From Limonium bicolor (taxonomy: Eukaryota > Streptophyta > Magnoliopsida > Caryophyllales > Plumbaginaceae), in contig CM041779.1 in assembly GCA_023374045.1 (NCBI GenBank), positions 269,152,131 through 269,216,130 of the forward strand: DNA of 64,000 bases, read 5' to 3'. Position numbers and translations under genes: made by a program. The notes under the pieces were generated by a model. It ran no database searches and was not told the origin of the DNA. It saw only the letters and a program-made list of their open reading frames with translations. This document shows, one piece after another, positions 20,465 through 51,306 of this stretch. The first letter of the stretch is position 1. Every line of letters begins with the position of its first letter.

Positions 20465-21852
20465 CAGGGGTGGCAAAACGATTGATCATTAATAGACTCC
20501 ATTTATTAAATGGGTAGATCAATTTATTACCTATTCAAATCCCCATATATTAAACTCAAAGCTAAATTATTTACTTATATATAAGATAAGGGAAATTTCA
20601 TGAAATACCACTACATTTTTTGCTAATTCATGAAATGCCACTAGAAAAAAAAAGTCACAAAATGTCACTATATTTTCATAAAAGTACATGAAATGCCACT
20701 ATAGTTATTGACGAGATGAAAAAAAGATAAAAATACCCCTACTAATTAACAAAATACTTTTAAAGTTCACAATATGCCCCTAAGTGTTAAAAAATTCACA
20801 AAAAATTCAAAATACAACAAAAATATAAAAATATGTATATAAAAATTAAAAAAATTATATAAATTGAAAAATAATATCATAAAATATTAAAAAAAATCAT
20901 TTTTTAAAATTTATTCAGTTTCATAAAAAAGAATATTGTATTCTAAACAAATAATTTATACCAATTTTTCTACCAAATTATACAATTAAGTACCATAATT
21001 TATACCAAATAAGTACCATAATTTTTACCACATTTTTAATTATTATTTTCTATCAATTTAAATTATTTGTTCAAAGTAAATTATTTTATTTTTTTACTTA
21101 TATTTAGAAATTTAGTTTTTAAAATTTATGTTCTATTTTTATGGTATTGAATAAATTTTAAAAAATAAAATATTCACTTCTTTTAGTAGTTCATGATTTT
21201 TTCATTTTTTCATTTTTAATTTAATTTTTATAAATTTTTTAAAATTTTATATATTATTTTATGTTCTTGTTGTATTTTGATTTTTTGTGAATATTTGTGA
21301 TTTTTAACACTTAGGGGCATATTGTGAACTTTAAAAGTACTTTGCTAACTGGTAGGGGTATTTTTGTCTTTTTTTCATCTGGTCAATGTCTATAGTGGCA
21401 TTTCATGGACTTTTATGAAAATATAGTGGCATTTTGTGACTTTCTTTTTTTTTAGTGGTATTTCATGAATTAGCCAAAAATATAGTGGTATTTCATTAAA
21501 TTTCCCATAAGAAAATAATTTGACTAATTAACATTAGTTTTGTCATTCTATGATATTATTAACTTTACTTTAAATTAAAATACTTAATTTTTAATATTTG
21601 TATTTCTTATTAATATTAAAATTTGATAAAATTTATTAGTATATAATCTATAATATATATAATTATTTAATATAAATTACCTAAACGGGTTAGCGGGTTA
21701 CACATTGAAAACCCAACCCGACACGGTTATTAAACGAGTCGTGTTCGGGTTGACCCGTTTATTTAATTGTGTCAAATTTTAAAACCCAAACCCGCTAACT
21801 TCATGTCGGGTTCGTGCTGGTCAAACGGATCGTGTTGAAATTGCCACCCCTA
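20465..21852. mobile_element. non-autonomous hAT-like element
   Basis: Terminal inverted repeat CAGGGGTGGCAA at the left and TTGCCACCCCTA at the right (one mismatch at the last base). Flanking 8-bp target duplications are GAATGAAG (20457-20464) and AAATGAAG (21853-21860), 7 of 8 identical. The right subterminal part is rich in GGGTTCGGGTTGACCCG-like motifs. No transposase. It contains a nested Mutator-like element. Family placement rests on TIR type and 8-bp TSD. Confidence 0.82.
20590..21506. mobile_element. Mutator-like long-TIR non-autonomous element
   Basis: Ends GGGAAATTTCATGAAATACC and its inverted counterpart at 21487-21506. The inverted similarity continues over more than 200 bp each side (ACTATA...GGCATTT, CCCCTAAGTGTTAAAAA). 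The flanks ATAAGATAA (20581-20589) and ATAAGAAAA (21507-21515) match 8 of 9, the 9-bp target duplication typical of Mutator elements. The centre is AT-rich and non-coding. It is nested in the hAT-like element, so it is younger. Confidence 0.82.
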
Positions 21853-22607: not shown

Positions 22608-25224
22608 ATAAAAACAGTGATTAATTAGGCTAATTATATTTTTAAAAGCTTAATTACACTTAAATAAATATGAGGGAACAAATCCCGAAGAAAACGGACC
22701 TTTAAAATGGGTTAAAAGCATAAACAAACCTTAAAGCGCGTTTTTCGAGGAAATCGGGAAAACGTGACTTTAAGCGGGTCAAATAGACTCGTAACAGTTT
22801 TGGTCAACTAAATAGTCACTAATAAATATTAGTGAAGCTTTAGAACCAATAAAATTAATTAAACAAGAAGATTCCGGAAAACGGGTACCGGATAGTAGGA
22901 ACTGTAACAACCGGGAAGTTGTGGGGTGAGAATGCAAATAAACAAACTTAGTGTGTCCACTTTATAAATAAAAATTAAAAATCTATGTATGTGTGCATAT
23001 GGGGGCCGGCCAGCTTCCCTCTCACTCACTCCCTTTATTATTTTGTAACTCACAAGAAGACAAAAGACATAAAGAAGGAAAAGAGACTCTCTCTCCTCAC
23101 TTCCCCACACCCTCTCACGTTGGCATCTCCCTCCTTCTCTATTCTTTCTTCTTCCCTGCGACATCCATGGAGAAATGAGGAAACTCACCCAACTCTCACC
23201 TTCTCTCCTCTTGTAAACCCATTAATCTTTCTCCAAAAATTACAAAATTTCTCCCGTCAGAAACCTTCTGGAATGGACCGAACTTGCGACCGGACTTGCA
23301 AGTTCGGTCGGCCAAAAAAATTCCCGTAATGCAAGCTACTGGAATGGACCGACCTTGCGACCGGACTTGCAAGGTCGGTCGGGCTAAAATTCTCACGAAG
23401 GAAACTTACTGGAATGGACCGACCTTGGGACTGGACTTGCAAGGTCGGTCGGCCCTGGAATTTTCACACGATGTAGGCTACTGACTTAGACCGAACTTGC
23501 GACCGGACTTGCAAGTTCGGCCGAGTAAAAAAAAATTTTTTATTATATGATTATAGTAATCATGTATATATATATATATATATATGCCTCTACACGTATA
23601 TGCATATGTATGTAGTAATACACCATTAATGAAGGTAATAAGGGTAAGAAAGTAAGTGAATGAATAAGGAAACAAGTTTAAGAAGTAGTAAAGGAAGAAT
23701 GGTTTTATAATCGAGTAAGAAAGTAATAAAGTAGTAAGTATACATTGAAAGTATCAATGAAGGAGTAAGTTAGATCGATAATAGATCATTGATCTTACTA
23801 CTTCATGTATGTATAGGAATCAAATAGTTGACCCTCGAAGGAACCCGGTAGTACGTATACGACGGTGAACGGTATGATTTCTTCATGCCCTGTATCCTAA
23901 CTTGGTTACCCCGATTTGTGTGCTTATGTGATCACCAATAAGATAAATGCACGAATCGGACTTTTATTGCACTTAATTGTGTTTGAATTATATTGTTCTT
24001 GTTGTATCTTCTTGAACAAATAGTTTGTATAATTCATGAAATGTAGGAATGAGAATGAAGTGTATGTGTAAGAATGAGTACTTGTGTATTGTATTGATGT
24101 ATGGAAAGAAAGTATGGACTTCTACTAATTCCTAACGATCTAACTCCTAACATGAGTAATGAGTAAAATGGAATGAGTAGAAGCCCGAGATAGTTTCGAC
24201 CACGCGTGAGGATAAGGAAACACAAGAGGTTGGATCCGAATCCTGGCTATAATCTTTTCCATGGACCAATTCCCTTGAATGGGTAGCATCCTGGATTAGT
24301 GGGCCACCCTAAAGCCTGGTGGTGGGATGTAGTAATCCCTGCCCGGAGGTCATACCGACTTAACTGGAAGTAAAGTATGTAAGAAGTAAGTATTGTATGT
24401 GTATTGGTCTTGACTACTGTAAGTCATCGACCCGGAGTAAAAGAGTATTGAACACCCGATTAACCCGGGTGTGTAATGTGGCTAACAAGACCTTTGTATG
24501 TATTGGAGAATTGTATCTCCGTAATGCGGTGAGTATGGGTAAGTATGAACAGTTGACTTGAATTGTCTTCCTTGTATGTATTGTATGTATGTATGCCTTG
24601 TGAAATGAATGTATTGAATTGTATTGTATAAAGCATGTATGTATGTATGAATGAAACGAACCGCATGTACTCGACCAATTAGTTGGCGTACCCTCGCTAG
24701 CACGCGGGGTATGCGGTTATCATATGCAGCGTAAGCTGACCCCCTAGGGGGAATGTTTTTACGCCACGGTACCGCCGGAGGCGTGAAGGTAGAGTAAGGA
24801 CCGGATGTAATCCTTTTTGGTATAGTTAGTAGGTTTGGATGGTGTACCGAGTTGTACCCGGCTAAGGCCATTTTGCGTAGCCGGTGCACCATGTGGTACA
24901 CCTTTTTGGATAAGGAATTCATGATTGGATAGTAAAGAGCAGTTGTATAAACTCTTAATTTTTGGGGAGTAGCATTGGATTGTAATTCGTATATTTGGAT
25001 ACTCGGTAATCAAATGTAAGTAAGTATTTGGTATTGTAAGTAAGTAGTATGTATTCAATTATTCTAATCGTCAGACCGATACGTAAGTAGTAGTAGCCTT
25101 GTTAACCTTGGATGGTTAACGGCGTTGTATCACCCGCCGGAAGTAAGTAAGTATTCCGCTGCGAGTAAGGTAATTATGGGAATAATCAGAGGATAATGGA
25201 AGGATTAGCGGTAGGGGTGTTACA
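22608..25224 (+). repeat. 5' LTR of element A (left tip missing)
   Basis: Homologous to 47615-50411. It lacks the first ~15 bases (TGAAATACCCCGTAA), which are replaced by unrelated flank. It ends TAGGGGTGTTACA and is followed by the primer-binding site. A TTTATAAATA box near 22962 and the CT-rich stretch after it look like the LTR promoter and transcript start region. 22711-23245 is not homologous to the matching part of the 3' LTR (47733-48445). Confidence 0.88.
23278..23520 (+). repeat. ~71-bp tandem repeat with hairpins, 4 copies (5' LTR of A)
   Basis: Each copy has a 10-bp stem, 10-nt loop GACCGGACTT (or variant), 10-bp stem: 23278-23307, 23349-23378, 23419-23448, 23491-23520. Stem type 1 is CCGAACTTGC/GCAAGTTCGG and type 2 is CCGACCTTGC/GCAAGGTCGG, so both strands of the stem change together. 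Copy 3 has one mismatch. Confidence 0.9.
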
Positions 25225-25229
25225 AAAAG

Positions 25230-25241
25230 TGGTATCAGAGC
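25230..25241 (+). other. primer-binding site of element A (initiator Met tRNA type)
   Basis: TGGTATCAGAGC, five bases after the LTR end. It is the standard site complementary to plant initiator-Met tRNA used by most copia and chromovirus elements. Confidence 0.93.
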
Positions 25242-25449: not shown

Positions 25450-26920
25450 ATGTCAGGAAGAGGTCCAGGCCGACCTAGAGGAGGTGGCAACGAAGGACCG
25501 GGCGCGCAGACGATAGCTGAGATCGTCGCCGCCACGGTAGCGCAGATGCTACCGCAAGTAATTACTGCTGTACAACAAACACAACAAACTCAACAACAAC
25601 AGCAACAACAACAGCAGCCCGACCCACCTCATCCCCGTGAGACCAATTGGGTAAAAGCCATCGCCGACCTTCGACCTCCATGCTTTAGAGGCGAGAGCGA
25701 CCCCGCCAAGCTCGAGGCTTACCTCTCCGAGATGGAGACGGCCTTCGAGACACTTGAGACTCCCGCTGGAGTTCAAGTGAGGATAGCTGCGTACTACCTC
25801 AAAGACGCGGCTATGGACTGGTGGAAGCTCATCAAGGCCGAGCACGTAGCCGACCCTGCATTCGGTTGGGAAGCATTCACCTCTCTCCTCCGATCTAAGT
25901 ATTACCCCGAGCATGTCAAGACCAAGAAAAGGCTTGAGCTCGATGCACTGAAAATGACCGAGAAGATGACGGTTGATGAATATTACCGCACCTTCACCTC
26001 TCTTCTCAGACTTCTACCCGACCTTGGGTATACCGGCCAAGTCTTGGTCGACCGCTTCTACGGCGGATTGAGCCATCGACTCCGGTATGGCATGGGCTTC
26101 ACACGGTTTACCTCCCTTCAGGTAAACATCGTTGAACCCTTAAGGGCCATGAGTAATGTGAATTAGTATTCCCGTATGTAAGTGTAACCTAACGCCTAAG
26201 TAATTCAGGAGTGTTACCACGCTGCATCTCGAGTTGAGATCACCTGCCAGCTGAGAGATGAGGAGCAAACACTGAAGCGCAAGGTGAGCGGCAAGGATAA
26301 CACCTCTGACGACCAAAACCAAGCCAGACCTTGGAAGAAGAAGGAGGGGAAGCATTCCCACCACAAGAACACTTCAGGAGACGGCGGAGCCCATACTGAG
26401 AAGGGCAAGGCAGCTGAACCGCTACAGATTGCCTACATCGCACCAGTGGCAGCGAAGCCACTGAGGTCTCAGCCCTACAAGGGTAAGAACCCGAAACCGA
26501 ATTAGAACACTTGTGAACACGTATGTATATAGAGTATTGTAAGTATACCGAACCTTGCTAACTTGGAAGCTATAGGTTCTGGATTTGGCCAAGGCAAGAA
26601 CCAATCTGATGGCCGTAGCTACATATGCCGTAACTGCAACAAGGATCATCCCGGCACAGATTGCCAAGGAAGGGAGATCCGCTGCTTCACTTGCGAGAAA
26701 CCGGGTCACCGTGCTAATGCATGCCCGGAGAATTCTAAGCCCAAGGGCAATTATCAGGGCTACAAGCAGCGTGAAGGCAAGGAGACTACACCTGGCGATG
26801 CTCATGCCCAGCATGCCTCACAGGGACAGGGATCCCGAGGTCCGCAGAAGGGCGCACCGCAGAGGCAGCTGGCCTTACACATCATAGACCGTGATGGGAC
26901 CGGGACTAAGTCCGGCCCAG
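25450..26920 (+). CDS. element A Gag (three exons, spliced)
   Basis: Gag forms the particle and binds RNA. The start at 25450 (MSGRGPGRPRGGG) is chosen because element B's Gag begins the same way; an in-frame ATG also lies at 25390. Exon 1 is 25450-26121: Gly/Arg-rich start, poly-Q, then the capsid fold (AAYYLKDAAMDWWKLIKAEH, SLLRSKYYPEH). An intron 26122-26208 separates it from exon 2 (26209-26482, ECYHAASRVEITCQ). A second intron, 26483-26575, precedes exon 3 (26576-26920) with two zinc knuckles, CRNCNKDHPGTDC and CFTCEKPGHRANAC. Joining at GT-AG borders keeps one frame; reading through hits stops (26164, 26502). Exon 3 can splice to pol (27992) or to the AlkB exon (27110), both in frame. 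Confidence 0.85.
26122..26208 (+). other. intron 1 of element A gag
   Basis: Donor CAG/GTAAAC, acceptor TAATTCAG/GAG, 87 nt, phase 0. The position (…Q / ECY…) is the same as the intron 37864-37943 in element B. Confidence 0.82.
26483..26575 (+). other. intron 2 of element A gag
   Basis: Donor AAGG/GTAAGA, acceptor GCTATAG/GTT, 93 nt, phase 1, inside a Gly codon just before the first zinc knuckle. It matches the intron 38269-38342 of element B in place and phase. Confidence 0.82.
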
Positions 26921-27991
26921 GTAACTACCGTAACCTTTAATCCTTGAAGAGCATGACTAAGTATTAAAGTAATTGTATGAATGGGAGTATGAATGCGTAA
27001 GTACTTGAAGTATGAAATTGAACATGAATAAGTAACATGGAAGTATGTCTTGAGCATGAAATGAATTAGTAAGCCTAGAACTCACTCTAGATATAATTTA
27101 CCACCTTAGGGAAATTCCTTATCTGTTACCCAATACCTTCGAACTCACCTCATGAAGAGACCGACATCGCCACTCACCACTTCGACAACAATCAGTGTCA
27201 GGTCATCCGCCCAGGTATGATTTTATTAAAAGGATACCTGACACCCGAAGCACAAGTCTAAATCATCCGACGATGCAACGAGTTAGGAATGGGTCCAGGA
27301 GGATTTTATACACCCGAATTCCCCGGTGGAGCTACAATGAAGCTGAAAATGATGTGCTTGGGAAAGGATTGGAATCCTTATACCAAGGCATATCAAACGA
27401 CGCGAGCAGGAGACGGAGCCACACCTCCAGCAATACCCCTAGAATTCCAAATGCTTGTCACTCAAGCTGTAGAAATTGCACAACAATGTGAAGATGAACC
27501 AATCCCTGCACTTGAAGTAGATCTATGTATCGTCAACTTCTATGAGAAAGAAGGACGACTTGGCTTACACCAAGATAAGGACGGGACAGCGGAATCTCTC
27601 GAACTAGGAGTGCCCGTAGTGTCTTGGTCCATTGGTGATGACGCCGTATTTTCGTATAGCGAGCAGAAGCGTGTGGACCTCGCAGAGAAACTGGTATTAA
27701 GATCAGGAGATGTTCTAATCATGGGTGGAGAATCAAGGTTGCTGTATCACGGGATCCAGAAGATCAAGTTGAATACAGCACCACCGGCAATAGTCAATGC
27801 CACACACATGAAACCAGGACGCCTGAACCTTACCTTTAGAAAGTATTAATCTTGTAGTAGCATGTAATCCAGTAGTAACGTGTATTAGAGACACAGCATG
27901 TATGATGGATGGTTATTAAATAAAAGCAGTGTTGGTTATTAAATTCCACTTGCGTTCCACCATCGTTACTTATAATCTTATGAATCAATAG
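26921..27991 (+). other. intron 3 of element A, carrying an AlkB ORF
   Basis: Donor GGCCCAG/GTAACT, acceptor AATCAATAG/GTTGTGG, 1,071 nt, phase 1. Removal joins the end of Gag (TKSGP) to the start of protease ([17 protein letters not shown]) in frame, which supports its being spliced. It contains the whole AlkB module and an internal 3' splice site at 27109/27110. Confidence 0.75.
27110..27849 (+). CDS. AlkB-type Fe(II)/2-oxoglutarate dioxygenase captured by element A
   Basis: AlkB-family enzymes oxidatively remove methyl groups from RNA or DNA bases, using Fe(II) and 2-oxoglutarate. The frame 27289-27849 (186 aa) has the full core: GPGGFYTPEF, LKMMCLGKDWNP, NFY then LHQDKD (iron ligands H94, D96), PVVSWSIGDDAVF, SGDVLIMGGESRLLYHGI (distal ligand H154) and the terminal RLNLTFR (2-oxoglutarate-binding R178 and family-typical R184). 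Upstream in the same frame the N-terminal part VIRPGMILLKGYLTPEAQV is present but cut by one TAA at 27259-27261. From a 3' splice site (CCACCTTAG/GG, 27110) the frame is continuous with Gag exon 3. No introns inside, so capture from a processed mRNA is plausible. It has its own stop, so it cannot be in the same protein as Pol. It resembles plant ALKBH1-type homologues. Active status is unproven. Confidence 0.87.
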
Positions 27992-30900
27992 GTTGTGGAC
28001 TCGGTACCGAAGGTAACCTGAGCATCCTCACCGAAGAACAAGCCGGCAAAAGCGGCACCATTCTAACGGGAACATTCCCAGTAAACGGCATCGAAGCCTT
28101 AGTATTATTCGACTCCGGCGCCTCTCACACCTTTGTATCGCCATCATTCGCTACAAGGTTGGGGCTAGACGCAGATGAGCTACCGAATTTCTTGGTTACT
28201 CTCCCGTCGAAGGAGCGGGTAAAGTGTACTAAGTATTACCACACCGCCACAATTCAAATCAAAGGCGAAGCGTTTCCCATCTCCTTCATTGAATTCAACG
28301 GGTTGGGATTCGACTTAATAATTGGAATGAACTGGTTGGAGCGGCACAAGGGGAGAATCCTATGCGCCGAGCACCGATTGCTGCTCAAGAGTCCATCTGG
28401 GGTCACTGTTTCATACCGCCAAAGACCGAGAGAGCCTTCAACTACAGTCATCTCCGCTATGGCAATGTACCGGGAGCTCAGAAAAGGACATGAAGTGTAT
28501 TTATGCCATGTGCAAGATCTGGAAAGAGATCCAGAATTCAGTGATGATGTGACCGTCGTCTCAGAATTCCCTGATGTATTCCCGAAAGAGCTACCTGGTA
28601 TGCCACCACAGAGAGCAGTAGAATTCGAAATCGACCTTGTACCGGGTACTGGTCCCACTGCTAGGGCACCATACCGTATGGCACCAGCAGAAATGACAGA
28701 ACTCAAAGAGCAACTACGGGATCTTCTCGACAAAGGGTTTATACGCCCGAGCGTATCACCCTGGGGAGCACCGGTCCTCTTCGTGAAGAAGAAGGACGGT
28801 AGTCTCCGCCTCTGCATCGACTACCACGAATTGAATGCGGTCACTGTAAAGAACAAGTATCCATTACCACGCATCGACGACCTGTTCGATCAGTTAAAGG
28901 GAGCTTCAGTCTTTTCTAAGATTGATCTCCGATCCGGATATCACCAAATTGCTATCAAAGAGCAAGATATTGAGAAAACAGCATTCCGAACAAGATATGG
29001 CCACTACGAATTCACGGTGATGCCATTCGGTTTGTCTAATGCACCAGCCAAGTTCATGGACCTAATGAATCGGTTATTCAGTGATCAGCTGGACACTTCA
29101 GTAGTAGTATTCATCGACGACATCCTTGTGTATTCGAAGTCAGCAGAAGAGCATGAAAACCACTTGAGAAGAGTACTTGAGACACTGCGTGAGAATCAGC
29201 TGTATGCGAAATTCTCCAAATGCGAGTTTTGGCTAGATCAGGTATCATTCCTCGGTCATGTCATCTCGAGCGCGGGCATTTCAGTAGATCCATCCAAAAT
29301 CGAAGCAGTGCGATCATGGCCTAGACCTAAGACTGTTACCGACATCCGGAGCTTTCTTGGTTTAGCCGGTTATTACCGGAGGTTTGTAAAGGACTTCTCA
29401 AAAGTCGCTAAGCCCATGACGTCATTGATGAAGAAAGATGCACCGTTTGTATGGACAAGCGAGTGCGAAGTATCCTTCCAGAAACTAAAAGACTCATTGA
29501 CCTCAGCGCCAATTCTCACACTTCCAGAGGGCACAGAGGGATTTGAGGTGTATTGTGATGCATCGGGCAAGGGCATGGGATGCGTACTCATGCAGCATGG
29601 CAAGGTAGTAGCATACGCCTCCCGCCAGCTGAAAAAGCATGAGGAGAATTACCCGACACATGATCTAGAGTTAGGAGCCATTGTCTTCGCCTTGAAGATA
29701 TGACGACACTATCTCTATGGGGTAAGCACCACCATATACTCCGACCACAAAAGTCTACAGTATGTATTTACCCAGAAAGAACTGAATCTAAGACAGAGGA
29801 GGTGGATGGAGTTTCTATCAGATTATGACATCAACCTCCAGTATAAAGAAGGGAAGGCAAACATTGTAGCCGACGCCTTGAGCCGTCGAGCACACTCGCT
29901 CCATTCGCTACTCGCTTCTTCTAGCTTGGTTGACGAGGTGCGAGACGCTCAGTTGAGCGACCCTTACTTCACAGAGATCAGACAGAAAATCACAGATGGT
30001 ACCTTCGAGAACCGAAAGTACGACTTCAAACTGCATGAAGATGGTCTGATCCGATTGAATGGCAGATTATGCGTCCCCCGAAGCAATGCTGAGCTAAGGG
30101 ATCGCATTCTACGAGAGTCACATTGTTCGACATTGCATGTCCATCCGGGAGCCTCTAAAATGTACAAAGACATGAAGAGGTACTTCTGGTGGTCAGGAAT
30201 GAAATCAGACGTGACTGAGTATGTTCTAAGGTGTCTCACATGCCAGAAGGTGAAGTTCGAGCACCGAAGACCGGGAGGAATGGTGCAATCCATGCCCATT
30301 CCGGAATGGAAATTCCACGATATCTCTATGGATTTTGTTGTTGGACTCCCACCTGCTAGGGGAGGACTCAACATGATCTGGGTAGTAGTCGATCGTCTCA
30401 CCAAGGTTGCCCGATTCATACCGATGAAGGACACCTGGAAGGTGGCGAAGCTCGCGGAGCTATTCGACAAGGAGATCATCCGACACCACGGAGTCCCAAA
30501 AACTATTGTATCCGATCACGACACCATATTTCTTTCGAGATACTGGAGAGCAACACGGGAAGCGCTTGGTACTGAGTTGAAGCTTAGCACCGCCTTCCAT
30601 CCACAGACCGACGGTCAAACAGAAAGGACCATCCAAACACTAGAGGATATGCTTAGGGCATGTGCCTTAGACTTTCAGGGGAGCTGGATTGAGAAGCTTC
30701 ATCTTATCGAGTTTTCGTATAACAATAGCTATCATGCTTCGATTAAGATGTCGCCATTCCAAGCTTTGTATGGTAGACCTTGTCGTACCCCGTTGTGTTG
30801 GGATGAGTCAAGTGAAGCGGTCATCATAGGACCGGAGTATTTGGAACAAGTACAAGCTGAGGTACAACAAATCCGAGCAAATATGAAGGCAGCCCAAGAT

Positions 30901-31371
30901 AGACAGAAATCCTATGCGGATGTGCGACGACGCGACCTTGAGTTCGCCGTGGGCGACCAAGTGTTCTTGCGTGTCTCACCTATGAAGGGTGTCTTTCGAT
31001 TTGGCCAAAAGGGCAAGCTGAGCCCGAAATTTGTAGGCCCGTATACCATTACCGAGAGGATTGGAACCGTAGCTTATAGGCTAGCATTGCCTGAAGAATT
31101 GGGGCGTGTTCATGATGTCTTTCATGTATCACAACTCAAGAAATACATAGCCAATCCCTCTCATGTATTAGAACCCGAACACCTATCCCTAGAGCTGACA
31201 ATGAGATATGTCGAGACTCCATTATGAATCCTTGATACAAAGACAAGAGACACTCGCCATAAATATGTACGAATGGTGAAGGTCTTGTGGTCTAACCACG
31301 ATGTCAAGGAAGCGACTTGGGAATTAGAGGACGCCATGAAGGCGAAGTACCCGAACTTATTTGTAGACTAG
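27992..31371 (+). pseudogene. element A Pro-Pol with chromodomain, two premature stops
   Basis: Order: protease ([11 protein letters not shown], about 28105), RT ([25 protein letters not shown], catalytic [10 protein letters not shown] about 29110), RNase H ([15 protein letters not shown] about 29550), integrase (HHCC zinc finger ending CLTCQ about 30235; catalytic MDFVVGLP, TIVSDHDTIF, DGQTERTIQTLED), then GPYTITERIGTVAYRL and a C-terminal chromodomain (VRMVKVLWSNHDVKEATWEL) ending at TAG 31369. RT/integrase sequence and the chromodomain place it in the Tekay/Del chromoviruses, which integrate by recognising chromatin. One frame runs throughout except TGA at 29701-29703 (a Trp expected before RHYLYG) and TGA at 31225-31227 just before the chromodomain. 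The integrase SDRD motif reads SDHD. Few lesions imply recent activity. Confidence 0.93.
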
Positions 31372-31414: not shown

Positions 31415-31429
31415 TTTTAAGGGGGGTAG
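31415..31429 (+). other. internal polypurine-tract copy of element A and left TSD of element B
   Basis: TTTTAAGGGGGGTAG. Its last five bases, GGTAG (31425-31429), are repeated at 47180-47184 after element B and form B's 5-bp target duplication. Element B contains the uninterrupted equivalent (AAGGGGGGTAGAGCC) at about 40931-40946. Confidence 0.85.
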
Positions 31430-34400
31430 TGAAATACCCCAAAATTATTAAACATGGATTAAATATTTAATCACACTAATTAAGGCCTAAACATGCCTTA
31501 AAAGTCAACTGAGAACAACAGTGGTCAACACAAAACAAGATGTTGCACCCTTTGACTGTTAAGGGTAAATAAATACCCAATTGAACTTCTTAGGACCTAA
31601 AAATTTGTCCTAAGTCTATTAACATAATATTAAACATATTATAACCGTTGTACAACACTCCAACACAAATAAAAAGCATTTACATGCTTCAAGGTCAAAA
31701 AGGGCAAAAATGTGCTCTAAGAAACCTTAAAGGTCTAATGACCTCTAAATGTTATAAAATTGGATACCATGATTAAATATCATGTAAGGAACACAACAAA
31801 ACCGTTGTAAAAGAAAACCAAGCTCAGAAACACCTTGCGACACAAAATGTGCACTAAAACTCCTTAAAGCACGTTTTTGTGTAATTGTCTTCTAAATTGG
31901 TTTTAAATGGGCTAAAAGGTTATAAATACCTTTAAATATAATAAAATATCATATTATATGATATTAGGAATTTAATTCCAAGAATTTACGAATTTTTACA
32001 TATTTAATATTAAAATATTAATAAAACCCTAAAATGGGGCCCGTTTGAGTCAACATTGACTAAGAATGGTCAAGAGGTCAAATTTTGACCCCTTGGACCA
32101 CATGAGGTCGACATACACAGGCTGGGGGAGTCCAAATTCGTCACTTACTAGCTTAATAAACAAGACTCCACTTGTTCCCTTAATTAAGGCTTACTTTTTG
32201 CCTTTTATTAGTTTATACACTCCTTTAGGCTCCATTATTGACTCCACCAGCCACAAAATCGTGTGAGGCCAGCCTTCCCCTCCAATTATCAATGCCAGCT
32301 CCATTATTATCCCTTTGATGACTCATTAGTCATTACAAATCAATAATATAGTCCAAAAGTGCTTTTTCATTCAATAATGCTCATTTTCAATCATTCATTG
32401 CCTCCTAGCTCCATTCCAACGACTCCAGCTCATTCCAACCGAGCTCCTTGAGTTTCCAAACTCTCCCAACCGTGGTTCTTGAGTTAGGAAGGTATATCTA
32501 ACTCCAAAGCTCCTAAGGTAATGGTTTAAGGCTTATTTTGGCTCTTTTTCTTCATCTCTTCACCACCTATGCTTAGATCTCGTGACTAATCACTTCCTAT
32601 GGCTTATTCTCAGTGTTCTAAGGTTAGAACATCAATCAAATTCGAATGAAACAAGTTTAGAGACCAAGGTTGCTCAAAATCTCATTTTAAGGTAAAAACA
32701 TACCTTAAGCTTCTATACTCTTCATCCGATTTTATTCCTCTGATTTTTGTGAGTTTATACACTCATAATATTCATATTTACATGTTCAATCAGTTGGTTA
32801 GCCATTTGGAGCAAGGGTGGCCGAGATCCAAAGGAAATACCTTCTTTTAAGGCATTTTTCCAAGGTAAAACCTAATAACAAGGTAGCTTGTTGTGATCTA
32901 GCTATTTCCTATGTCAATATGGTAGATCTAACACCTTGTGGTGTGTTTGATTCAGGTCGAAACCATCTTGAACTTTCCTTGCATTTTTAAGGTGATTTTT
33001 GCCTTAAAATCTTACATAAATTATTCCTTATGGTTAGATCTTGCTTGGAGACTAACTATGCCTTGGTTTCTGTTTGAAAACATGTAAAACAAGCTGTGGA
33101 GAATTTCTCCTTAAGGTGGCGAACCCAAACAAGGCTTTACCTAAGCTAAATCAAGGTATAAATCACTTAAAACCTTAATTTGATACATTAACACAAGTTT
33201 AAGTGTGTGTATATTAATTTCCGTGAGTGAATGATTAAAATAAGGTCTTGTTTGACCTTAAAATGATTAAGGAATGGTTTAAAAATTTTATAACTAATTA
33301 AACAAGCATAAATGTCAAATTTAAGACATTATGTGGAAGTTTGGTAAATAAATGAAAGTTATATGGTGAGGCCGAGATTTATAAGTGTTTTTAGGACATT
33401 TATGTGTAATTTATTTTGCAAGCCAATGTTTGTAATAAGGCCATGTATTTTAGGCCATTTTATTTATGTATTTACAAGCTTTTATTTATGTTTAGGTGAT
33501 ATATAATTATTACCGAAATGAATAAGGGGTTATAGTGTAATTAAATTAAATTTAGGGACTTTAGAAAAATAAAGCCGAAAATTAGAGTTAAAAAGGAGTT
33601 AAAATAAAGTTTATAAGATTTTATAAAGTTTTGGGGTGTAAATTTTGGAAACTTAGGGGTTAAAACTGTGATTATAAGGAATTGGTGGTCAAGGAAATAT
33701 TAAGGTGGTCAACCTTGACCATATGCTAGGTTTTGACCAAATTAGATAAGTTAAATAACTTATTTAAGGTTTTATAATAAGATAAGTATCTTAAGGTAAT
33801 ATTTTTTATAACATATGTGGTAAATATGTTATTACCGAAAATAAAGGGTGTACAATGGTATTTTAAACACCCATGGGCTATTAGGAATTTTAGGAATTTA
33901 TTGGGTTGATTTTGGAATTAAAATGAACTATATATGTACAATATATAGTTATTATGTCATTATGACACTTTGGAGAAATATAGATGGTGGAATGGTAAAT
34001 ACCATAAGTACATGGGTTAATAAGGATATCTATAACCCTTTGGAGAAACTTGGTGATTTTTAGAATTATATAAGAGTATTTGATAAGACATGTGTATAAA
34101 ATATAGTCTTAAGGTTATGGTAAAACTATATGTTATAAATAGGGCCAAATGGCAATTAAAACAGCACAAGGGCTGTTTAGGATTTACAAAAAAATAACCA
34201 TAGGCTATACTCTTTTATAAGTTAGAAATGTTATATTAAATGGTATATAAACATGGTATAAAGAAAGGGGTGATTTTGTAAATAAAGGAAACTATGGTTT
34301 ATGGAAAAGAATAAGGTTTAATATATATGCCTAGGCGGCAATATATAATAGTTTTGTATAAAAACTATAGGTTATAATTAAAGGAAATAAAAATATCATA

Positions 34401-37004
34401 TCAAATGATATTAGTATTTTGGTACAACATTACATAATGTTATGTGGTCAAAATAGAATATAAATGAATTCAAGGGCCGTACCGAATTAATAGGAGTTGG
34501 AAAATGAATTTTAGACTAAGGTCTATAATGCTATAAATGTTATAACAATTATATGGGTTAGATGGAAATATAAGTAAGGATATTCACATCAAAGAATGTG
34601 ACAAACTATAAATAAATGGGATTTATAAACTAAGGTGTTTATGGAATAAACCTTAGGAGTTGTAATTATACAACATAAAATGTTACATAATATTAGGATA
34701 ATAATCTTAATATAAGTGGTATAATATAATACAATTAATGGGAATAATCATCTAATAAAAGATGATAAAATGTAACATAAAATAAGAGTTTATGATACTC
34801 ATGAGAATTACCTACGTGGTAAAAATATATACATAAACAAGAATAATGTATATAAGGTGGATATATATATTTTGGTTGGAAACCATATGATTTAATGGTG
34901 GTGGTTATTTAAAAAAAAATATAGTACGAACTATAAGTTATGAATTTTTGGATGCAAATATTATTTGCTAAAGATAAATGGATCATACAATACATTGTAT
35001 TATAGTGGATGGTGGGGAGAATGATACAATATAATAAGTGATACAATACAAAAATAATAATATAATACAATCATGCATGCATACATGCAACTATAGGTTA
35101 TGTACCTAAACTAGATGGTGGATAAGATTAAAAGAAATGTAACGAATTAAACTTAATAGTTGAAATGTTTTGACGTACGCGTTTTAAGTAACAAAGCCGA
35201 CTGTTTTAGAGAAACCTGTAACAAACAACTGTAGAAAACAGGGGTGAACTGTCGGGGTTACTTATTATTCGGAAACACCGGATGTAGTTAGTCATGGAGA
35301 CTGACTTATAGTTTTAATACCGTTTAGATTATACTTCTGACAAGGACGCTTGACAAGCTAGCGGACTACACGGAGTATAGGATCTTACTGATTCATACTC
35401 CACCGTAATACGATCAGGGTGAACGGTATGTAAAGGGGTTTGATCCGAGTTGTCCTAAGGTTGCTCCTTGGGCTCGGATTTGGTTGATATAACTTGCATG
35501 TTGTTATGTGTCTCTGATTGTCTCTGAGGGCTTCCTCAGTTCATACTTCTGTGTGATCTATGATAAGATTGTTTGTCTGAATGTGATAATTAATATGCTG
35601 AATTGTATATTTATAGCTGCTTATTATTTACTGTTGTTGAGTTAACAGTATTGGTTCGTATATATGAACCTATATATATAAAACGAACTAGCGGCTATGG
35701 TGCTATCTTATATGAAATATAAGGAACGTCAGTAAAACGTTGTAGCACTAGGATAAAACATATATTATATATATATATTATCCGAGACTTTTATACGGAG
35801 CATTGGCCTTTTATACGCCGCTCTCGTATCTAACACTGGATCCCGAGTTTACAGACTCCGGATTGGACTAATGACTTTAGTCCGCTGTGTTAGAAAATTT
35901 GGTATGTGATGCGATGGTATAATTAATTAATTAATGGAATGGAAGTAAAGCCAAGAGGATGTGGCTCTTGGTGCGCGCTGTGATCACAAAAACGATACCA
36001 GGATGTCCGCGTACGGGTCCGTAAGTATCAAGAAAATTTCCCGTGAGCTAGAATGGCTCGTTGGTCGGAGACTCTACCGTTGGAGTGGCTACTGCCGTGG
36101 GTGACCCGCCATAATATATGGGTAACTAGAGACATGTCGTTTTAACGAGACATTGTCACTAGGTATAACTGAACAACTAAAACAATTGAGACTTATACAG
36201 TGGCGAACAATACCATGGACGAGACTTAATACTTGTTTATTATTCTCGTTGTTTCGCTTTGTTGTTCATTGGTTATACTTGTGGTTATTTTATTGTGTGT
36301 TGATGGTTGGATGGAGCCTACAAGGCTAAGGTAAACTAAATATGAAAACTGTACATTATATTGTTATTGTTCGATACGTTCGATATATAATTGTGGACTG
36401 TGTTATTAAATGATTGTGGATTGGATGGATGGTTGAATATCTATGAATATTTGGATGGATGAATATGTGTATTATACATGTTTATTACAGTATTGTTATA
36501 ACTGTAAAATGGTAAAGCATGAAACCGACCTAGTAATAAGATGGTTAAAATGACAAGTGACCATTAGGGTCCAGGCCCGGCATACTCAGCGTCTATCGCT
36601 GATACTACACCATTTCAGGTTGTTGATCATTGTTGAAGCTGAAGAGCAGGAACAGGGTAATTGGAGTTTTGCTTTTGTTACCACACATGGAGATGTTGTA
36701 TAGCAATGTAGATGGTGAATTGTATTATGGTAAGGTTGTGTATTCAGGATTGGGTAGACGCTCACTTGTCGATGTTTATGGTTTATGGACTTAGTATGAT
36801 GTATAGGAATTTCTCGTTATCACTACGGTTAGCAGTTTGTTTATTTTGGAAGTTGGATGTAGTTTGGCTACGTTGCTCGCATGGGCGAGTAATGGCCGGT
36901 GACACCCGAGTGAGTTTTGTAATTGTTGGTAATTTTCCGCTGTGAGACGTTTTATTTATTGCTACGTGAGAGATTATATCGTGATTATGGAGAGGGGTGT
37001 TACA
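31430..37004 (+). repeat. 5' LTR of element B (5.58 kb)
   Basis: Starts TGAAATACCCCAAAATT, ends GAGAGGGGTGTTACA. Very AT-rich in the middle. It has the conserved TTCCGCTG box at 36936. Short frames inside (for example 32066-32266) recur unchanged in the other LTR simply because the LTRs are copies; I see no coding signal. Confidence 0.93.
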
Positions 37005-37008
37005 AAAG

Positions 37009-37020
37009 TAGTATCAGAGC
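37009..37020 (+). other. primer-binding site of element B
   Basis: TAGTATCAGAGC, differing from the canonical initiator-Met site of element A at one base (G to A, second position). Four bases (AAAG) separate it from the LTR. Confidence 0.85.
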
Positions 37021-37236
37021 GGAGTACCGCTCTGATGACGAGAAAGTAGGTTAAGACAGTGAGCTTAGGACTTGGGAAGTATTGGGAAACATTTGGGAAG
37101 TATGAGACGATCCGTCTTAGAAGGATATTGTGTCTAGTAATGCAAATGGCGTGATAGGTTAGCCTTAAGGCAACTTAATATCTACTGGTTGTGTACGGTA
37201 ATTTACCGAATATTTATGTGACATACTGTACTACAG

Positions 37237-38616
37237 ATGTCTGGAAGAACGAGAGGGCGTGGTACTGGAAGAGGTAGAGGCGGTGGCCCCGGCATTCCAG
37301 GAGTTGCTGAGACGGTTGCTGCCGTTCTTGCACAGCTGGGTACCCAAATAGGAGGAGCACCAGCCCACCCGCCACAGCCCAGGGAAACGAACTGGCTGAA
37401 GTCAGTTAGCGAGACACGACCACCTACATATTCTGGGGAACCAGACCCCGTAGCTTTGGAGCGTTACATTGTTGAACATGAGAAAGCATACGAAGCTTTA
37501 CAGGTACCTGACGACAAAAAGGTCGCCATTGCTGCCTTCCATTTGAAGGATGCAGCCAGTACTTGGTGGAGATTGGTCAAGGACCATCAGCTGGCTACGC
37601 CCGACTTTTTGTGGGCTGCCTTTGTCGAGTTGCTGAGAGGGAAGTACTACCCAACACATCTCAAACAGAAGAAGCGCTAGGAGTCAGAGACACTGACCCA
37701 AGGAGGTCTGACCGTGGATGAGTATTACGCTCGATTCATTGGTTCGCTGGACTCCATTCCCGGTGTGGATTACTCAGAGACCGTGAAGGTCGATAAGTTC
37801 TGGGGAGGACTATTATTTCGCATTCAGATGGCGATGGGTGCTACCCTCTACACTACCATCCAAGTACTAACATGAAAGCCATAAAATTCTTTACTTACTA
37901 CATTACCAATTAACTTTGTGAGAACTTACCAAGGAGATTCCAGGAGTGTTATGAGGCTGCCTCGAGGACGGAGCTAATGCTCCAGACTCGGGAAGAGACT
38001 CTCGGGGCCAAGAAAAGGAAGAACCCTGAGGGAGAGTCTGAGGGGAGGAGCATCTCCAGGCGAAAGCCAAAAGAAGGGAAAGTAAGGACTTATTCCATTT
38101 CAGATTATTTATCATATTAGATACCTTAGGAATGCTGACCCGAAACCTTAAATAGGAAATTCTTTCCAAAGAAAGGGCAGCAGGGTCACCAGGGAACAAA
38201 GGGAAAAGAGCCCGTCCTTCGGTTGACCGGCCCAGCCATAGCTACCTCTAGATCTGCACCTCCTAAGGGTGAGAACACCTACCTCTTAAATTTTGTGACC
38301 TTAACCTTATATCAATTATACTTAAATTAATACTACCATCAGGCACCAGACAGCCCCAGCGCCATTTTTACTGTAAGCGTTGTGGGAAAGACCATCCTGG
38401 GGTCGATTGCGAAGGCCGCAAATTGTCTGTCGGTGCTGCAAGAAAGAGGGCCATAGGGAATTCGAGTGCTGGATGAACCAGAGAGCCGTAACTACAGGCC
38501 ACCAAAGAATACTCAGAAGACCTCAGGGAGGATCTGGAGTACCACGAGGCGGTCAGGATGGCCAGACATCTACTGATGCTGGAGCCTGGAGAGGCAAGGG
38601 AGTAGATAGGGCATGA
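37237..38616 (+). pseudogene. element B Gag, four exons, broken
   Basis: MSGRTRGRGTGRGRGGG start, capsid fold (AAFHLKDAASTWWRLVKDHQ, LLRGKYYPTHLKQKK), then TAG at 37678-37680, which breaks exon 1. Exons deduced: 37237-37863, 37944-38081, 38172-38268, 38343-38616. Introns are 80, 90 and 74 nt, all GT-AG and phase-consistent (0, 0, 1). The first zinc knuckle CKRCGKDHPGVDC is in frame. The second (CRCCKKEGHREFEC) is in another frame, so a frameshift lies between them near 38420. The ECYEAASRTE and ...PPKG junctions correspond to those of element A. No pol follows. Confidence 0.85.
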
Positions 38617-40927
38617 GTACCCTGAACTCCATGAGACCGCTGGTGGAAGACTTTTACTTACTATTGTATTGTACTTACCTTGGATGTTAAACAGACTTAT
38701 GTTATAAGTATGTGGGAGTGTGTCATTGACCACTCGCCTTTGGTGTAAGACTTGGGATTAGTTGTGTGTACTCAGTACCAAAAGCTTTAAACCTCGACGG
38801 ATATATATGAACAAGATGTTAATGCTTACATTATCATGTATCAATACTCAAATGACGAAGAGTCAATGAGACCGTGAACTACTGAACCAGAATTTCCACC
38901 TGCATGGCGCACTTGCTATTGCAAGCGCTATGACAAGAAAACCACTGAAATTTCCATCTGCCTTGCGCACTTGCTACAGCAAGTGCAGCAACAGCAACAG
39001 CAATAGTAACAGCAACTGCAAATGCAACTGCAACAACTACTACTTTTTAGTCTTTTATTATATGTATACCAAAAAAAAAATGCTTTTCAAACTTTTCATA
39101 CAAACCTTGAGGTTAGAAACCTATGCCACTTTGGAAGGACCGTTAGTCCAACCACAGCAACTGGAGAAATGCTACAACCACTGTGATTGTAAATCACACC
39201 AGTTTAAATTGTTTGGGAATTTTCAGACAAGGCTTGTTAGCCAAATACCATCAGTGTATACCCGCATTTAATGCTAATCACTATCAGTGATAAATGTTTA
39301 GTCCTCATGGACAAGCATACCCTTTGTAGATGCACCACCGTTAGTGAGGATGGTTGGGAAGTGAAGAGCCAAGTTGCTCAAGCTATTATGCAATCTGCAA
39401 TACATCCAATTAAACGGATGAGGGAAAGAATGTGAACTATGGAAGAGTTGTGATCATGATAAACAGGGAGAAAAGGAAAATGTGTTGTACTCAATGAGAT
39501 CAAAAAAAAAAAGAGGAGAAACAAGTTTGCTAATATAGCACGGATTTTACTTACACCGAGTTGAATAATACCAGTCTATGGCACAAATTACCACGGATGC
39601 CACTAAGGCAATAGCACTTATTACAGGATAACTGATAACATGAACTATTACACAAAAAAGCAAGCAAAAAGAAGACAAAAAAAAGAAGGAAGAAGAAGAG
39701 AGAAAAAAAAGGGATATCCATCAGAGGGAGATTGACAACAGAATACTTCACAACAACCGTGTGACAGACATTACCAGTTTACTAAACGAGACATGGGACG
39801 ACCGCACTCCGTTAGGAGCATGTGGGCCTGACAGACTTATTTATGAGTTAGTCGGGTAAGTAGTAATGTATCAGTACGGTACCCCATGCAAGTAGACAAG
39901 TAGTGTTAGGAACACGAGAAGTAGTCAACTCCATTCTACGGACAGTAAGACGGATTACCTCGAAGATGGACGAGAAGAGCCGCAGTTAAACCAACGGGCT
40001 AAGGAAATCAAGAACCTTCAACAGAGAACAGTAGACAGTATACAGTGAAGACAGGGAAACAGTACAAGGACAGGAACCCAAAAAAAAAAATTCAGGAAAA
40101 CCCGTTATGGACGGATAACATGTAGAATCCTCATAAGGATCGAGTAAATTATTACAATCCAGAGGAAATCTACCAGATGATATGGATATAAACGCGTGAC
40201 TACGCAAGGAGAAAAGATAAAGCTATATGATAGCAGAAACCTTGCTCAAGGAACAGTGGATTCGGAATGTACCACTCACAGGATAATTCGCACATCTTAT
40301 CTGTTTGACTCACGAGATATTAGCTTGAGCGTTTACGCCTCTGCACTCTGTATGACTGAGTGTTTTGGTATTGCACTCGTGCAGTTATTAATCTAGTGGG
40401 AATGCAGAAAGATAAAGTGGATATCAACAAGAGTGTGTAAAAAAAAAGAAGAACTACAACAGTGTGTTACTCCGAACAAAACCACCAGGAGACAAGGATG
40501 ACAAACATCATCTTTATGGACATATAGGCTGGTACGTCTTAGTATTACAAGACAAGTGCAAGAGCACTAAGTACTAACAGTAGCCAATGTCACATTATAC
40601 CTCAAGCTGAATATCAGTGAGAGAAGACACACGCATGTTTGCTAGTGATCCAAATGAGAGGACACAGCAATGGAAATAGGCAAATTGAGCCTATGTTCAT
40701 GGGTCTACGCCTCATACGGAGCGAGTGGGCCCATAAGAACGAACTTAGAGAGAGCACAAATAGTTGGTGCCTCACTCTTTATATTGTGGAGCCCAGAAGG
40801 GCTAGAGTCATACCCGTCTCTCTGATATGAGGATAACCCATGAGTTGGTGAACTCTTTGAGAGCCAAGTATCCAGCGCTCCTTATTGAGCGGCTGTTGTA
40901 TACTTGTGGGGTACGGGGGCGTAACCC

Positions 40928-40946
40928 TTTTTAAGGGGGGTAGAGC
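40928..40946 (+). other. internal polypurine-tract copy of element B
   Basis: TTTTTAAGGGGGGTAGAGCC-type sequence about 650 bp before the true LTR boundary. It is the counterpart of A's 31415-31429. Confidence 0.75.
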
Positions 40947-41577
40947 CTCTTGGCTGTGCACATGTGTGCACTAAGTTTTGGTTGTTTAGTATGCATTGCG
41001 TACAAAGAATTGGTGGTGTGCGGGGCATACGAGGTTGTTTGTTTAGTATGCATGGCATACAGTGAATTGTTTCGTATGCATGGCATACAGTGAATTGGTT
41101 TTGTTGGTTATGTTTGGTACGCGGGGCGTGCGTTGTTTGGTTGTTTGGGTGTGATGTACACTTGAATGTATGTATCTTATGAGATACTTGTTTGAATGAT
41201 TGTATGTACACCATGTGTGTAGTACTTTTCTTATGCTATTTGTGATATGTATTCATATTGCTTTATAGAATGATTACATATGGTATCGCCTAGATACGAA
41301 ATGAATCATTAGATATGGAATGTGGAACAATGGAATGTTATGGACACCTCAGGGAGGTTGTCAGGGTTGGTAGAACTGATAGGAAATGATGGTGCTGATG
41401 GATCACCTATATCCATATATGATTGAACTAACGCCACAACGTGATGGCTATGTGCTTTATAAGCGCAATACGATGTGTGTAAATGATATATCACATAGAT
41501 ATACATTATGGGAACAATGGGTAGTTATACATTTATATATACTTACCTACTTGATTAAGAGACTTCGGGACGAAGTC

Positions 41578-41595
41578 TTTTTAAGGGGGGTAGAT
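41578..41595 (+). other. polypurine tract of element B
   Basis: TTTTTAAGGGGGGTAGAT immediately before the 3' LTR start, primer for plus-strand synthesis. Confidence 0.88.
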
Positions 41596-44500: not shown

Positions 44501-47179
44501 GCCTAGGCGGCAATATATAATAGTTTTGTATAAAAACTATAGGTTATAAATTAAAGGAAATAAAAATATCATATCAAATGATATTAGTATTTTGGTACAA
44601 CATTACATAATGTTTTGTGGTCAAAATAGAATATAAATGAATTCAAGGGCCGTACCGAATTAATAGGAGTTGGAAAATGAATTTTAGACTAAGGTCTATA
44701 ATGCTATAAATGTTATAACAATTATATGGGTTAGATGGAATTAATATAAGTAAGGATATTCACATCAAAGAATGTGACAAACTATAAATAAATGGGATTT
44801 ATAAACTAAGGTGTTTATGGAATAAACCTTAGGAGTTGTAATTATACAACATAAAATGTTACATAATATTAGGATAATAATCTTAATATAAGTGGTATAA
44901 TATAATACAGTTAATGGGAATAATCATCTAATAAAAGATGATAAAATGTAACATAAAATATAAGAGTTTATGAAACTCATGAGAATTACCTACGTGGTAA
45001 AAATATATACATACACAAGAATAATGTATGTAAGGTGGATATATATATTTTGGTTGGAAACCATATGATTTAATGGTGGTGGTTATTTTAAAAAAAATAT
45101 AGTACGAACTATAAGTTATGAATTTTTGGATGCAAATATTATTTGCTAAAGATAAATGGATCATACAATACATTGTATTATAGTGGATGGTGGGAGAATG
45201 ATACAATATAATAAGTGATACAATACAAAAATAATAATATAATACAATCATGCATGCATACATGCAACCATAGGTTATGTACCTAAACTAGATGGTGGAT
45301 AAGATTAAAAGAAATGTAACGAATTAAACTTAACAGTTGAAATGTTTTGACGTACGCGTTTTAAGTAACAAAGCCGACTGTTTTAGAGAAACCTGTAACA
45401 AACAACTGTAGAAAACAGGGGTGAACTGTCGGGGTTACTTATTATTCGGAAACACCGGATGTAGTTAGTCATGGAGACTGACTTATAGTTTTAATACCGT
45501 TTAGATTATACTTCTGACAAGGACGCTTGACAAGCTAGCAGACTACACGGAGCATAGGATCTTGCTGATTCATACTCCACCGTAATACGATCAGGGTGAA
45601 CGGTATGTAAAGGTGTTTGATCCGAGTTGTCCTAAGGTTGCTCCTTGGGCTCGGATTTGGTTGATATAACTTGCATGTTGTTATGTGTCTCTGATTGTCT
45701 CCGAGGGCTTCCTCAGTTCAGACTTCTGTGTGATCTGTGATAAGATTGTTTGTCTGAATGTGATAATTAATATGCTGAATTGTATATTTATAGCTGCTTA
45801 TTATTTACTGTTGTTGAGTTAACAGTATTGGTTCGTATATATGAACCTATATATATAAAACGAACTACAGGCTATGGTGCTATCTTATATGAAATATAAG
45901 GAACGTCAGTAAAACGTTGTAGCACTAGGATAATAACATATATATATATATTATCCGAGACTTTTATACGGAGCATTGGCCTTTCTATACGCCGCTCTCG
46001 TATCTAACACTGGATCCCGAGTTTACAGACTCTGGATTGGACTAATGACCTTAGTCCGCTGTGTTAGAAAATTTGGTAATGCGATGCGATGGTATAATTA
46101 ATTAATTAATGGAATGGAAGCAAAGCCAAGAGGATGTGGCTCTTGGTGCGCACTGTGATCACAAAAACGATACCAGGATGTCCGCGTACGGGTCCGTAAG
46201 TATCAAGTAAATTTCCCGTGAGCTAGAATGGCTCGTTGGTCGGAGACTCTACCGTTGGAGTGGCTACTGCCGTGGGTGACCCGCCATAATATATGGGTAA
46301 CTAGAGACATGTCGTTTTAACGAGACATTGTCACTAGGTATAACTGAACAACTAAAACAATTGAGACTTATACAGTGGCAAACAATACCATGGACGAGAC
46401 TTAATACTTGTTTATTATTCTCGTTGTTTCGCTTTGTTGTTCATTGGTTATACTTGTGGTTATTTTATTGTGTGTTGATGGTTGAATGGAGCCTACAAGG
46501 CTAAGGTAAACTAAATATGAAAACTGTACATTATATTGTTATTGTTCGATACGTTCGATATATAATTGTGGACTGTGTTATTAAATGATTGTGGATTGGA
46601 TGGATGGTTGAATATCTATGAATATTTGGATGGATGAATATGTGTATTATACATGTTTATTACAGTATTGTTATAACTGTAAAATGGTAAAGCATGAAAC
46701 CGACCTAGTAATAAGATGGTTAAAACGACAAGTGACCATTAGGGTCCAGGCCCGGCATACTCAGCGTCTATCGCTGATACTACACCATTTCAGGTTGTTG
46801 ATCATTGTTGAAGCTGAAGAGCAGGAACAGGGTAATTGGAGTTTTGCTTTTGTTACCACACATGGAGATGTTGTATAGCAATGAAGATGGTGAATTGTAT
46901 TATGGAAAGGTTGTGTATTCAGGATTGGGTAGACGCTCACTTGTCGATGTTTATGGTTTATGGACTTAGTATGATGTATAGGAATTTCTCGTTATCACTG
47001 CGGTTAGCAGTTTGTTTATTTTGGAAGTTGGATGTAGTTTGGCTACGTTGCTCGCATGGGCGAGTAATGGCCGGTGACACCCGAGTGAGTTTTGTAATTG
47101 TTGGTTATTTTCCGCTGTGAGACGTTTTATTTATTGCTACGTGAGAGATTATATCGTGATTATGGAGAGGGGTGTTACA
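41596..47179 (+). repeat. 3' LTR of element B (5.58 kb)
   Basis: Collinear with 31430-37004 from TGAAATACCCC to GGGGTGTTACA, with only scattered differences. Followed by GGTAG, the right target duplication (47180-47184). Confidence 0.93.
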
Positions 47180-51294: not shown

Positions 51295-51306
51295 GATTGC
51301 CCCCCG
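51295..51306 (-). other. polypurine tract of element C
   Basis: Minus-strand GACGGGGGGCAATC directly before the LTR start TGTTATACCC. It fixes the element's orientation. Confidence 0.75.

Follow-up and report, generated by a model that had tools for sequence, protein, structure and literature searches.

A putative AlkB dioxygenase of the plant ALKBH1 type as a predicted alternative exon in the gag-pol intron of a chromovirus-like Ty3 LTR retrotransposon of Limonium bicolor

A high-copy LTR retrotransposon of Limonium bicolor, hereafter element A, carries an AlkB gene between gag and pol as a regular module, which is under purifying selection about as firm as that on gag and pol. By its sequence the element is a chromovirus-like Ty3 element with introns in gag, and its AlkB region reads as more than mere cargo of an intron: it behaves as an alternative exon, reached from the same donor as pol, that would give a Gag-AlkB fusion. 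The copy described here lies in a window of 64,000 nucleotides (contig CM041779.1, positions 269,152,131 to 269,216,130), where the following features were placed.

22609-25224, + strand: 5' LTR of element A, with its first bases missing or recombined
25230-25241, + strand: primer binding site (PBS) TGGTATCAGAGC, from the sequence
25450-26121, + strand: gag exon 1, capsid (Retrotrans_gag, E 3e-16)
26122-26208, + strand: intron 1, from its exact absence in two copies (L021 and L066) and from genomic spliced joins
26209-26482, + strand: gag exon 2, from its shared-variant N/S of 0.30 of neutral
26483-26575, + strand: intron 2, from GT-AG ends and frame read by eye and from the spacing of other joins
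26576-26920, + strand: gag exon 3, zinc knuckle(s), ending in TKSGPG (zf-CCHC, E 4e-5)
26921-27991, + strand: gag-pol intron 3, from the spliced Gag/Pol join at 9 places
26921-27109, + strand: proximal part of the intron, ending at the AlkB acceptor (ACCACCTTAG/GG), from an AG in 59 of 60 rows and 4 Gag/AlkB joins
27110-27849, + strand: predicted AlkB alternative exon, in frame with Gag and with its own stop codon
27289-27846, + strand: AlkB 2OG-Fe(II) dioxygenase core, 186 aa (PF13532, E 6.9e-39)
27992-29700, + strand: pol with protease, reverse transcriptase and start of RNase H (RVP_2, E 8.5e-26; RVT_1, E 1.3e-36)
29704-31224, + strand: pol with the remaining RNase H and integrase (Integrase_H2C2, E 7.5e-19; SH3_Tf2-1, E 1.4e-26)
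31228-31371, + strand: candidate chromodomain remnant at the C end of integrase (PF00385, E 1.4e-4)
31430-47179: nested element B, near the 3' end of element A, with the target duplication GGTAG
47615-50411, + strand: 3' LTR of element A, beyond nested element B

Element A shows the whole set of Ty3/gypsy hallmarks, namely LTRs, PBS, gag, the order PR-RT-RH-IN and a PPT, and its Pfam domains follow the expected succession of capsid, zinc knuckle, protease, RT, RNase H, integrase and a weak chromodomain. The last of these scores 22.1 bits, below the family cut-off of 25.1, at the position where a chromodomain is expected. The PBS TGGTATCAGAGC is presumably of the initiator-tRNA-Met type, the 5' LTR was read by eye as ending in ...GGTGTTACA, and the gag start ATG was likewise placed by eye, after the gag start of the nested element B. 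A search with the Gag protein gave 758 candidates, none of them at E 0.001. The two stop codons in Pol mentioned in the preliminary description are real in the window copy, at 29701 and 31225. The LTRs of element A share 95.3% identity over 1991 bp (23245-25227 against 48444-50414) and 99% at their other matching stretch (22609-22712 against 47631-47734), with a K2P divergence of 0.038 (1964 sites). The middle parts of both LTRs (22713-23244 and 47735-48443) are mismatched and the 5' LTR lacks its first bases, as in a recombinant or converted LTR.

The splicing of the element was read from the genome itself, since a real intron implies that reverse-transcribed spliced RNA leaves exact exon joins, which were searched for in 2.92 Gb. 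The gag-pol intron is 1071 bp long, has GT and AG ends, starts at the donor CAG/GTAACT at the end of gag exon 3, and its removal joins the zinc-knuckle Gag in frame to the protease. In the window and the fetched copies together, the GT is present in all 60 rows with letters and the AG in all 61. The Gag/Pol join occurs at 9 genomic places, 4 of them without mismatch, and a Gag/AlkB join at 4, so that the genome holds fossils of in-vivo splicing of this intron; the unspliced donor, searched for as a 30-base stretch across it, was found at 1296 places with at most three mismatches. Genome-wide controls with reversed patterns gave 0 places for exon joins each time. The early claim that the splice sites at 26921 and 27991 excise the insert and restore the Gag-Pol frame is thus borne out, including its coordinates.

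The two smaller introns left traces as well. Intron 1 is exactly absent from 2 of the 60 fetched copies, which are 98.9% alike, and its spliced join was found at 203 places, 24 without mismatch and 28 with one; many of the remaining joins are one common two-mismatch variant, which might represent a related family or a subfamily. Three copies have their intron-1 and Gag/Pol joins 622-625 bp apart, a distance that matches exons 2 and 3 joined directly and leaves no room for intron 2. Moreover, the gag of element B has GT-AG gaps (by eye) at the places where element A has introns 1 and 2, so both introns look old in the lineage. The large excess of intron-1 joins over Gag/Pol joins (203 against 9) might come from reverse transcription of partly spliced RNA whose copies then multiplied as a subfamily, or from a related family that lacks intron 1.

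That AlkB lies inside an intron, as originally proposed, holds for the gag-pol intron as a whole, with its 9 Gag/Pol joins, but not for AlkB as such, which has an acceptor of its own at 27109, seen in 4 joins. The last codon of gag exon 3 is cut after its first base, and two acceptors, 27109 for AlkB and 27991 for Pol, lie in frame with the donor at 26920 and complete that codon in phase. The coding exon of AlkB would then start at 27110, upstream of the first ATG of the ORF, and run to the stop at 27847-27849. Several features mark this point: the AG at 27109 is kept in 59 of 60 rows, the GC content steps from 32% (26980-27099) to 49% (27100-27219), and frame-shifting length changes affect 21 of 60 rows over the 30 bp that precede the AG but 2 of 60 over the 30 bp that follow, against 5-12 per 30-bp window elsewhere in the intron. 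Past the AG the codons are open in 55 of 60 rows, and the residues between it and the first conserved ATG are kept in the database protein P0002 (12 of 35 identical, a value reached in 0 of 100,000 shuffles). The single TAA reported for the N-terminal part is there, at 27259, and is confined to the window, with 0 cases in 60 other aligned copies. Another acceptor, at 27214 and in phase by eye, was rejected, with 0 genomic joins.

The four copies with a Gag/AlkB join read TGTKSGP-G-KFLICYP across it, in the fusion frame. Within the 801 bp read, each of the four is interrupted by stops or frameshifts. One pair is 99.4% alike and the other pairs 91-93%, so that, with so few fossils, the number of splicing events they record is uncertain. 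Altogether, the boundary of constraint at an in-frame AG together with these fossils argues for AlkB as an alternative exon and, both predicted joins being found as fossils, the element probably makes Gag, Gag-AlkB and Gag-Pol.

The ORF at 27289-27846 matches PF13532 over residues 4-184, and the preliminary description rightly credited it with all metal and 2-oxoglutarate ligands. As a family, AlkB enzymes take methyl groups off the bases of DNA and RNA. Across an alignment of 40 sequences H94, D96 and H154 do not vary, and R178 and R184 hardly do, which gives the HxD...H metal triad and the RxxxxxR 2OG motif of AlkB enzymes on a jelly-roll fold. The predicted structure of the core (pLDDT 92.7) resembles most closely rice OsALKBH1 (PDB 5xoi and 5xeg; TMq 0.93 and 0.90, 49-50% identity), followed by E. 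coli AlkB (TMq about 0.79), human ALKBH1 (up to 0.65) and zebrafish ALKBH5 (0.52). Among the best 120 matches of each search, the named ones are all plant or algal proteins, and the best of them are of the ALKBH1 type or unlabelled dioxygenases. Model and matches point to a putative dioxygenase of the plant ALKBH1 type, not of the ALKBH5, ALKBH9 or ALKBH10 types.

AlkB is a module of the element. A query with AlkB in the genome of L. bicolor (2.92 Gb) gave 47,844 first-look candidates, a figure not to be taken as the number of copies. Scores were computed for 150 of them, and every row matches AlkB: the 149 besides the window copy are 93-97% identical to it, and 143 of the 150 have no internal stop, a proportion biased by their being the best-scoring rows. 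Sixty copies were fetched, nearly all from the top of this list and with a block of equal-scoring rows at E 2.8e-116 omitted. In 59 of these AlkB-selected copies gag exons 2-3, parts of the intron, AlkB and pol, whole or partial, lie within 4.2 kb, with intron 1 missing from two of them, and the remaining copy (L067) is cut; the order gag-AlkB-pol was read in coordinates for the window and 7 other copies. Since such a sample is chosen by AlkB itself, bias was checked with 20 copies taken from the 85 rows of an integrase search. AlkB stands at the expected distance in 19 of them, as would be foreseen from the proposal that other copies hold it between Gag and Pol, and a one-off insertion is thereby rejected; the twentieth (L082) has no element match in the fetched 921 bp and decides nothing. 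The AlkB frame is free of stops and frameshifts in 1 of the 19, the other 18 being decayed or carrying assembly errors. Many copies of this sample (L069-L088) have one- or two-base length changes in AlkB, for which assembly error and decay are indistinguishable here. Scans of viral contigs with AlkB and Pol gave nothing useful.

Selection was assessed across copies with variants split into those seen once and those present in at least two rows, N/S being scored against the expectation for each mutation type. Shared variants in AlkB comprise 31 N and 59 S, an N/S of 0.24 of neutral (61 rows), in a sample of best AlkB scorers, which lowers N. Comparable values were obtained for pol (0.20, 58 rows), gag exon 2 (58 rows, the value listed above) and gag exon 3 (0.32, 61 rows), with out-of-frame controls at 1.7-3.0. 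Even the variants found in a single row fall below neutral (AlkB 0.49, pol 0.61, gag exon 2 0.81, gag exon 3 0.69), so this yardstick is approximate. In the pol-selected sample alone the signal for AlkB is weaker (shared 9 N and 9 S, ratio 0.44, P 0.06), with out-of-frame controls, window added, at 1.2 and 2.1. The N-terminal extension taken by itself showed no significant constraint (shared 0.65, P 0.23). The suspicion that AlkB has been selected is upheld, and the purifying selection on it is about as firm as on gag and pol.

In trees of 121 and 53 proteins, the AlkB of the window and six database proteins (P0001-P0004, P0013 and P0074), which are 60-70% identical to it, form one clade with supports of 100/99 and 99/97 on a long stem. 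The clade stands apart from the sampled seed-plant ALKBH1 proteins in these midpoint-rooted trees with long branches, and the comparison with host ALKBH proteins that had been suggested at the outset places the window beside none of the sampled host ALKBH1 sequences; an origin as a copy of one of these was rejected for lack of any such grouping. An AU test did not reject (p 0.594) a tree with the clade beside the flowering plants, away from two gymnosperm-like and four alga-like rows. A second profile search, read through short sequence signatures, added no further member of the clade among the best 120 of 4199. One clade on a long stem makes the uptake of AlkB look old and single, and the tree suggests that the six relatives might be transposon-borne too.

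The reading that we consider quite probable is that one donor and two acceptors set the output of the element, and that the Gag-AlkB product is packaged and removes methyl groups. With the intron retained, translation would stop a few codons into it and give Gag; read without splicing, the Gag frame meets an identical stop codon in 50 of 60 rows and a stop within a few codons in the other 10. Joining 26920 to 27109 would give Gag-AlkB, ending at the AlkB stop, and joining 26920 to 27991 would give Gag-Pol. The Gag part might then assemble Gag-AlkB into virus-like particles, where the zinc knuckles could hold it on nucleic acid, and the enzyme would oxidatively strip methyl groups, for example m6A or m1A from the template RNA and 6mA or 1mA from single-stranded cDNA, which would otherwise silence the RNA or impede reverse transcription. 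Such a donor-acceptor switch would offer a simple way of loading an enzyme into the particles. With an enzyme of the ALKBH1 type, adenine methylation of DNA, or single-stranded cDNA, comes into question as a target alongside m6A in RNA. With more than 1000 donor sites of the family in one genome (1296), the demethylation idea is directly testable.

Three other explanations bear on parts of this reading. AlkB could be made as a protein of its own, with translation starting at an ATG just upstream of the exon (near 27091) or at 27217, from RNA that keeps the intron or is initiated separately, as the relatives P0001 and P0004, which start at the internal ATG, and the separate AlkB ORF of orchid elements (PMC9289625) might suggest. 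An in-frame ATG does follow the last intron stop in 19 of 60 rows, 17 of them at one spot, and these rows may have a stand-alone start; so do 6 of the 17 readable copies among the 20 selected by pol have it in frame. However, the other 41 of 60 rows, and 11 of those 17 copies (6 with one common variant), either lack this ATG or have it in another frame, so that it is not generally used. A start at 27217 would moreover leave the conserved N-terminal extension untranslated, and neither the open codons past the AG nor the spliced Gag/AlkB fossils fit a separate protein, which we regard as distinctly unlikely. Far less credible still is a passive cargo, that is, a host ALKBH1 copy caught in the intron and tolerated without function. 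The place of AlkB in spliceable sequence and its broken frame in 18 of 19 pol-sampled copies speak for it, but it is largely refuted by purifying selection akin to that on pol and gag, by a seven-member clade whose other six members have kept 60-70% identity to the window, and by the failure of AlkB to group with any sampled host ALKBH1 protein; when neutral drift to 70% identity was simulated, both lineages stayed free of stops in 2.7% of runs, and did so with all five ligands kept in 0.35%.

The remaining alternative concerns the target only and fits the splicing model: Gag-AlkB would have its substrate in the host, either RNA or the DNA of chromatin (6mA, R-loops), and loosen silencing. In its favour, the nearest solved enzyme is rice OsALKBH1, and rice ALKBH1 has been reported to be nuclear, active on 6mA of single-stranded DNA in vitro and acting at R-loops (PMC10469495). 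Against it, a fusion to the Gag nucleocapsid would be easier to explain by packaging, and a retrotransposon RNA, that of ONSEN, is acted on by AtALKBH9B (reviewed in PMC12786077). We hold a host target to be possible, though rather unlikely.

The view that AlkB is not a standard part of Ty3 elements needs to be qualified, as there is a precedent in orchids, which is also the sole published instance of an LTR retrotransposon with AlkB that we found in the open-licence literature. Ty3/Gypsy elements of Phalaenopsis carry an ORF2 of the paALKBH5-like type (Alvarado-Marchena et al. 2022, PMC9289625), and the authors' screen of 121 angiosperm genomes placed an AlkB domain in LTR elements of Phalaenopsis only. 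Both systems are high-copy plant Ty3/gypsy elements with an AlkB 2OG-Fe(II) dioxygenase that has all its cofactor ligands. The orchid element, of the Tat family (a Tat/Ogre-like group) and sister to Ogre, is described there as 25 kb long with gag-pol in one ORF, and its AlkB, of the ALKBH5 type, occupies the C end of a separate 565-aa ORF2 and demethylates m6A in vitro (PMC9289625). Element A differs: it has a candidate chromodomain remnant, an enzyme of the ALKBH1 type, a gag-pol split by introns, and an AlkB exon between gag and pol in the Gag frame; the activity of the orchid enzyme was shown in vitro, whereas that of element A is a prediction from sequence and model. That the lineage of element A has long packaged a Gag-fused demethylase by splicing one donor to AlkB or Pol, after an uptake independent of that of the orchid elements and from another AlkB subfamily, seems to us an evenly balanced proposition. 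It would point to a second, independent uptake of AlkB by plant LTR retrotransposons, which would argue that base methylation is a recurrent barrier to these elements.

With rice OsALKBH1 (5xoi, 5xeg) the element enzyme shares the ligand set and the fold. It differs from plant ALKBH1 in being encoded by a retroelement, in frame with Gag, and in having its own clade and stem (100/99); moreover, 5 of 6 aligned host proteins have an insertion ahead of the domain's central P, and the element enzyme does not.

Splicing has been reported for other plant LTR elements. A 2025 review depicts them as generally devoid of introns, with Ogre and EVADE as exceptions (PMC12786077), and alternative splicing has been described for sunflower elements (PMC7730604). 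In Ogre the intron lies between polyprotein coding regions, and in Ogre, EVADE and the sunflower elements splicing of part of the RNA controls protein output (PMC6317226, PMC12786077, PMC7730604). LTR elements with alternative splicing are thus nothing new as such, and element A is like these in that splicing would decide which proteins form. The available parts of those sources mention no enzyme-coding exon within an intron; element A, which is of a different lineage and has at least three introns, holds a coding exon within its gag-pol intron and, with it, a second acceptor.

The dUTPase of betaretroviruses lies between NC and PR and is made as a Gag fusion through ribosomal frameshifting. 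The AlkB of element A, as predicted, is similarly an accessory nucleic-acid enzyme between nucleocapsid and protease and fused to Gag, but it would be reached through splicing instead of frameshifting, and its chemistry differs. The AlkB of plant RNA viruses sits in the replicase, and the likeness to element A is that of an AlkB enzyme in a plant parasite, those being RNA viruses. The presence of AlkB domains in plant RNA viruses is discussed in PMC9289625 (see also PMC544882).

The window also holds other repetitive elements. Element B, nested in element A, has LTRs of 5.6 kb with a K2P of 0.010 and a gag about 44% identical to that of element A (204 aligned residues); tblastn of the pol of element A against it gave no pol match, and it looks like a non-autonomous relative. 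In each of the two elements the true polypurine tract is preceded, at a distance of a few hundred bases, by an extra tract-like stretch (AAGGGGGGTAG), at 31419-31429 and 40933-40943, and that of element A is exactly the insertion point of element B. A third LTR-like pair (50412-51294 and 58688-59572, spanning 50412-59572; K2P 0.015) begins directly at the end of the 3' LTR of element A. Finally, a palindrome of about 920 bp with 76% identity occupies 20587-21509, in AT-rich DNA, and resembles a hairpin of the MITE type.
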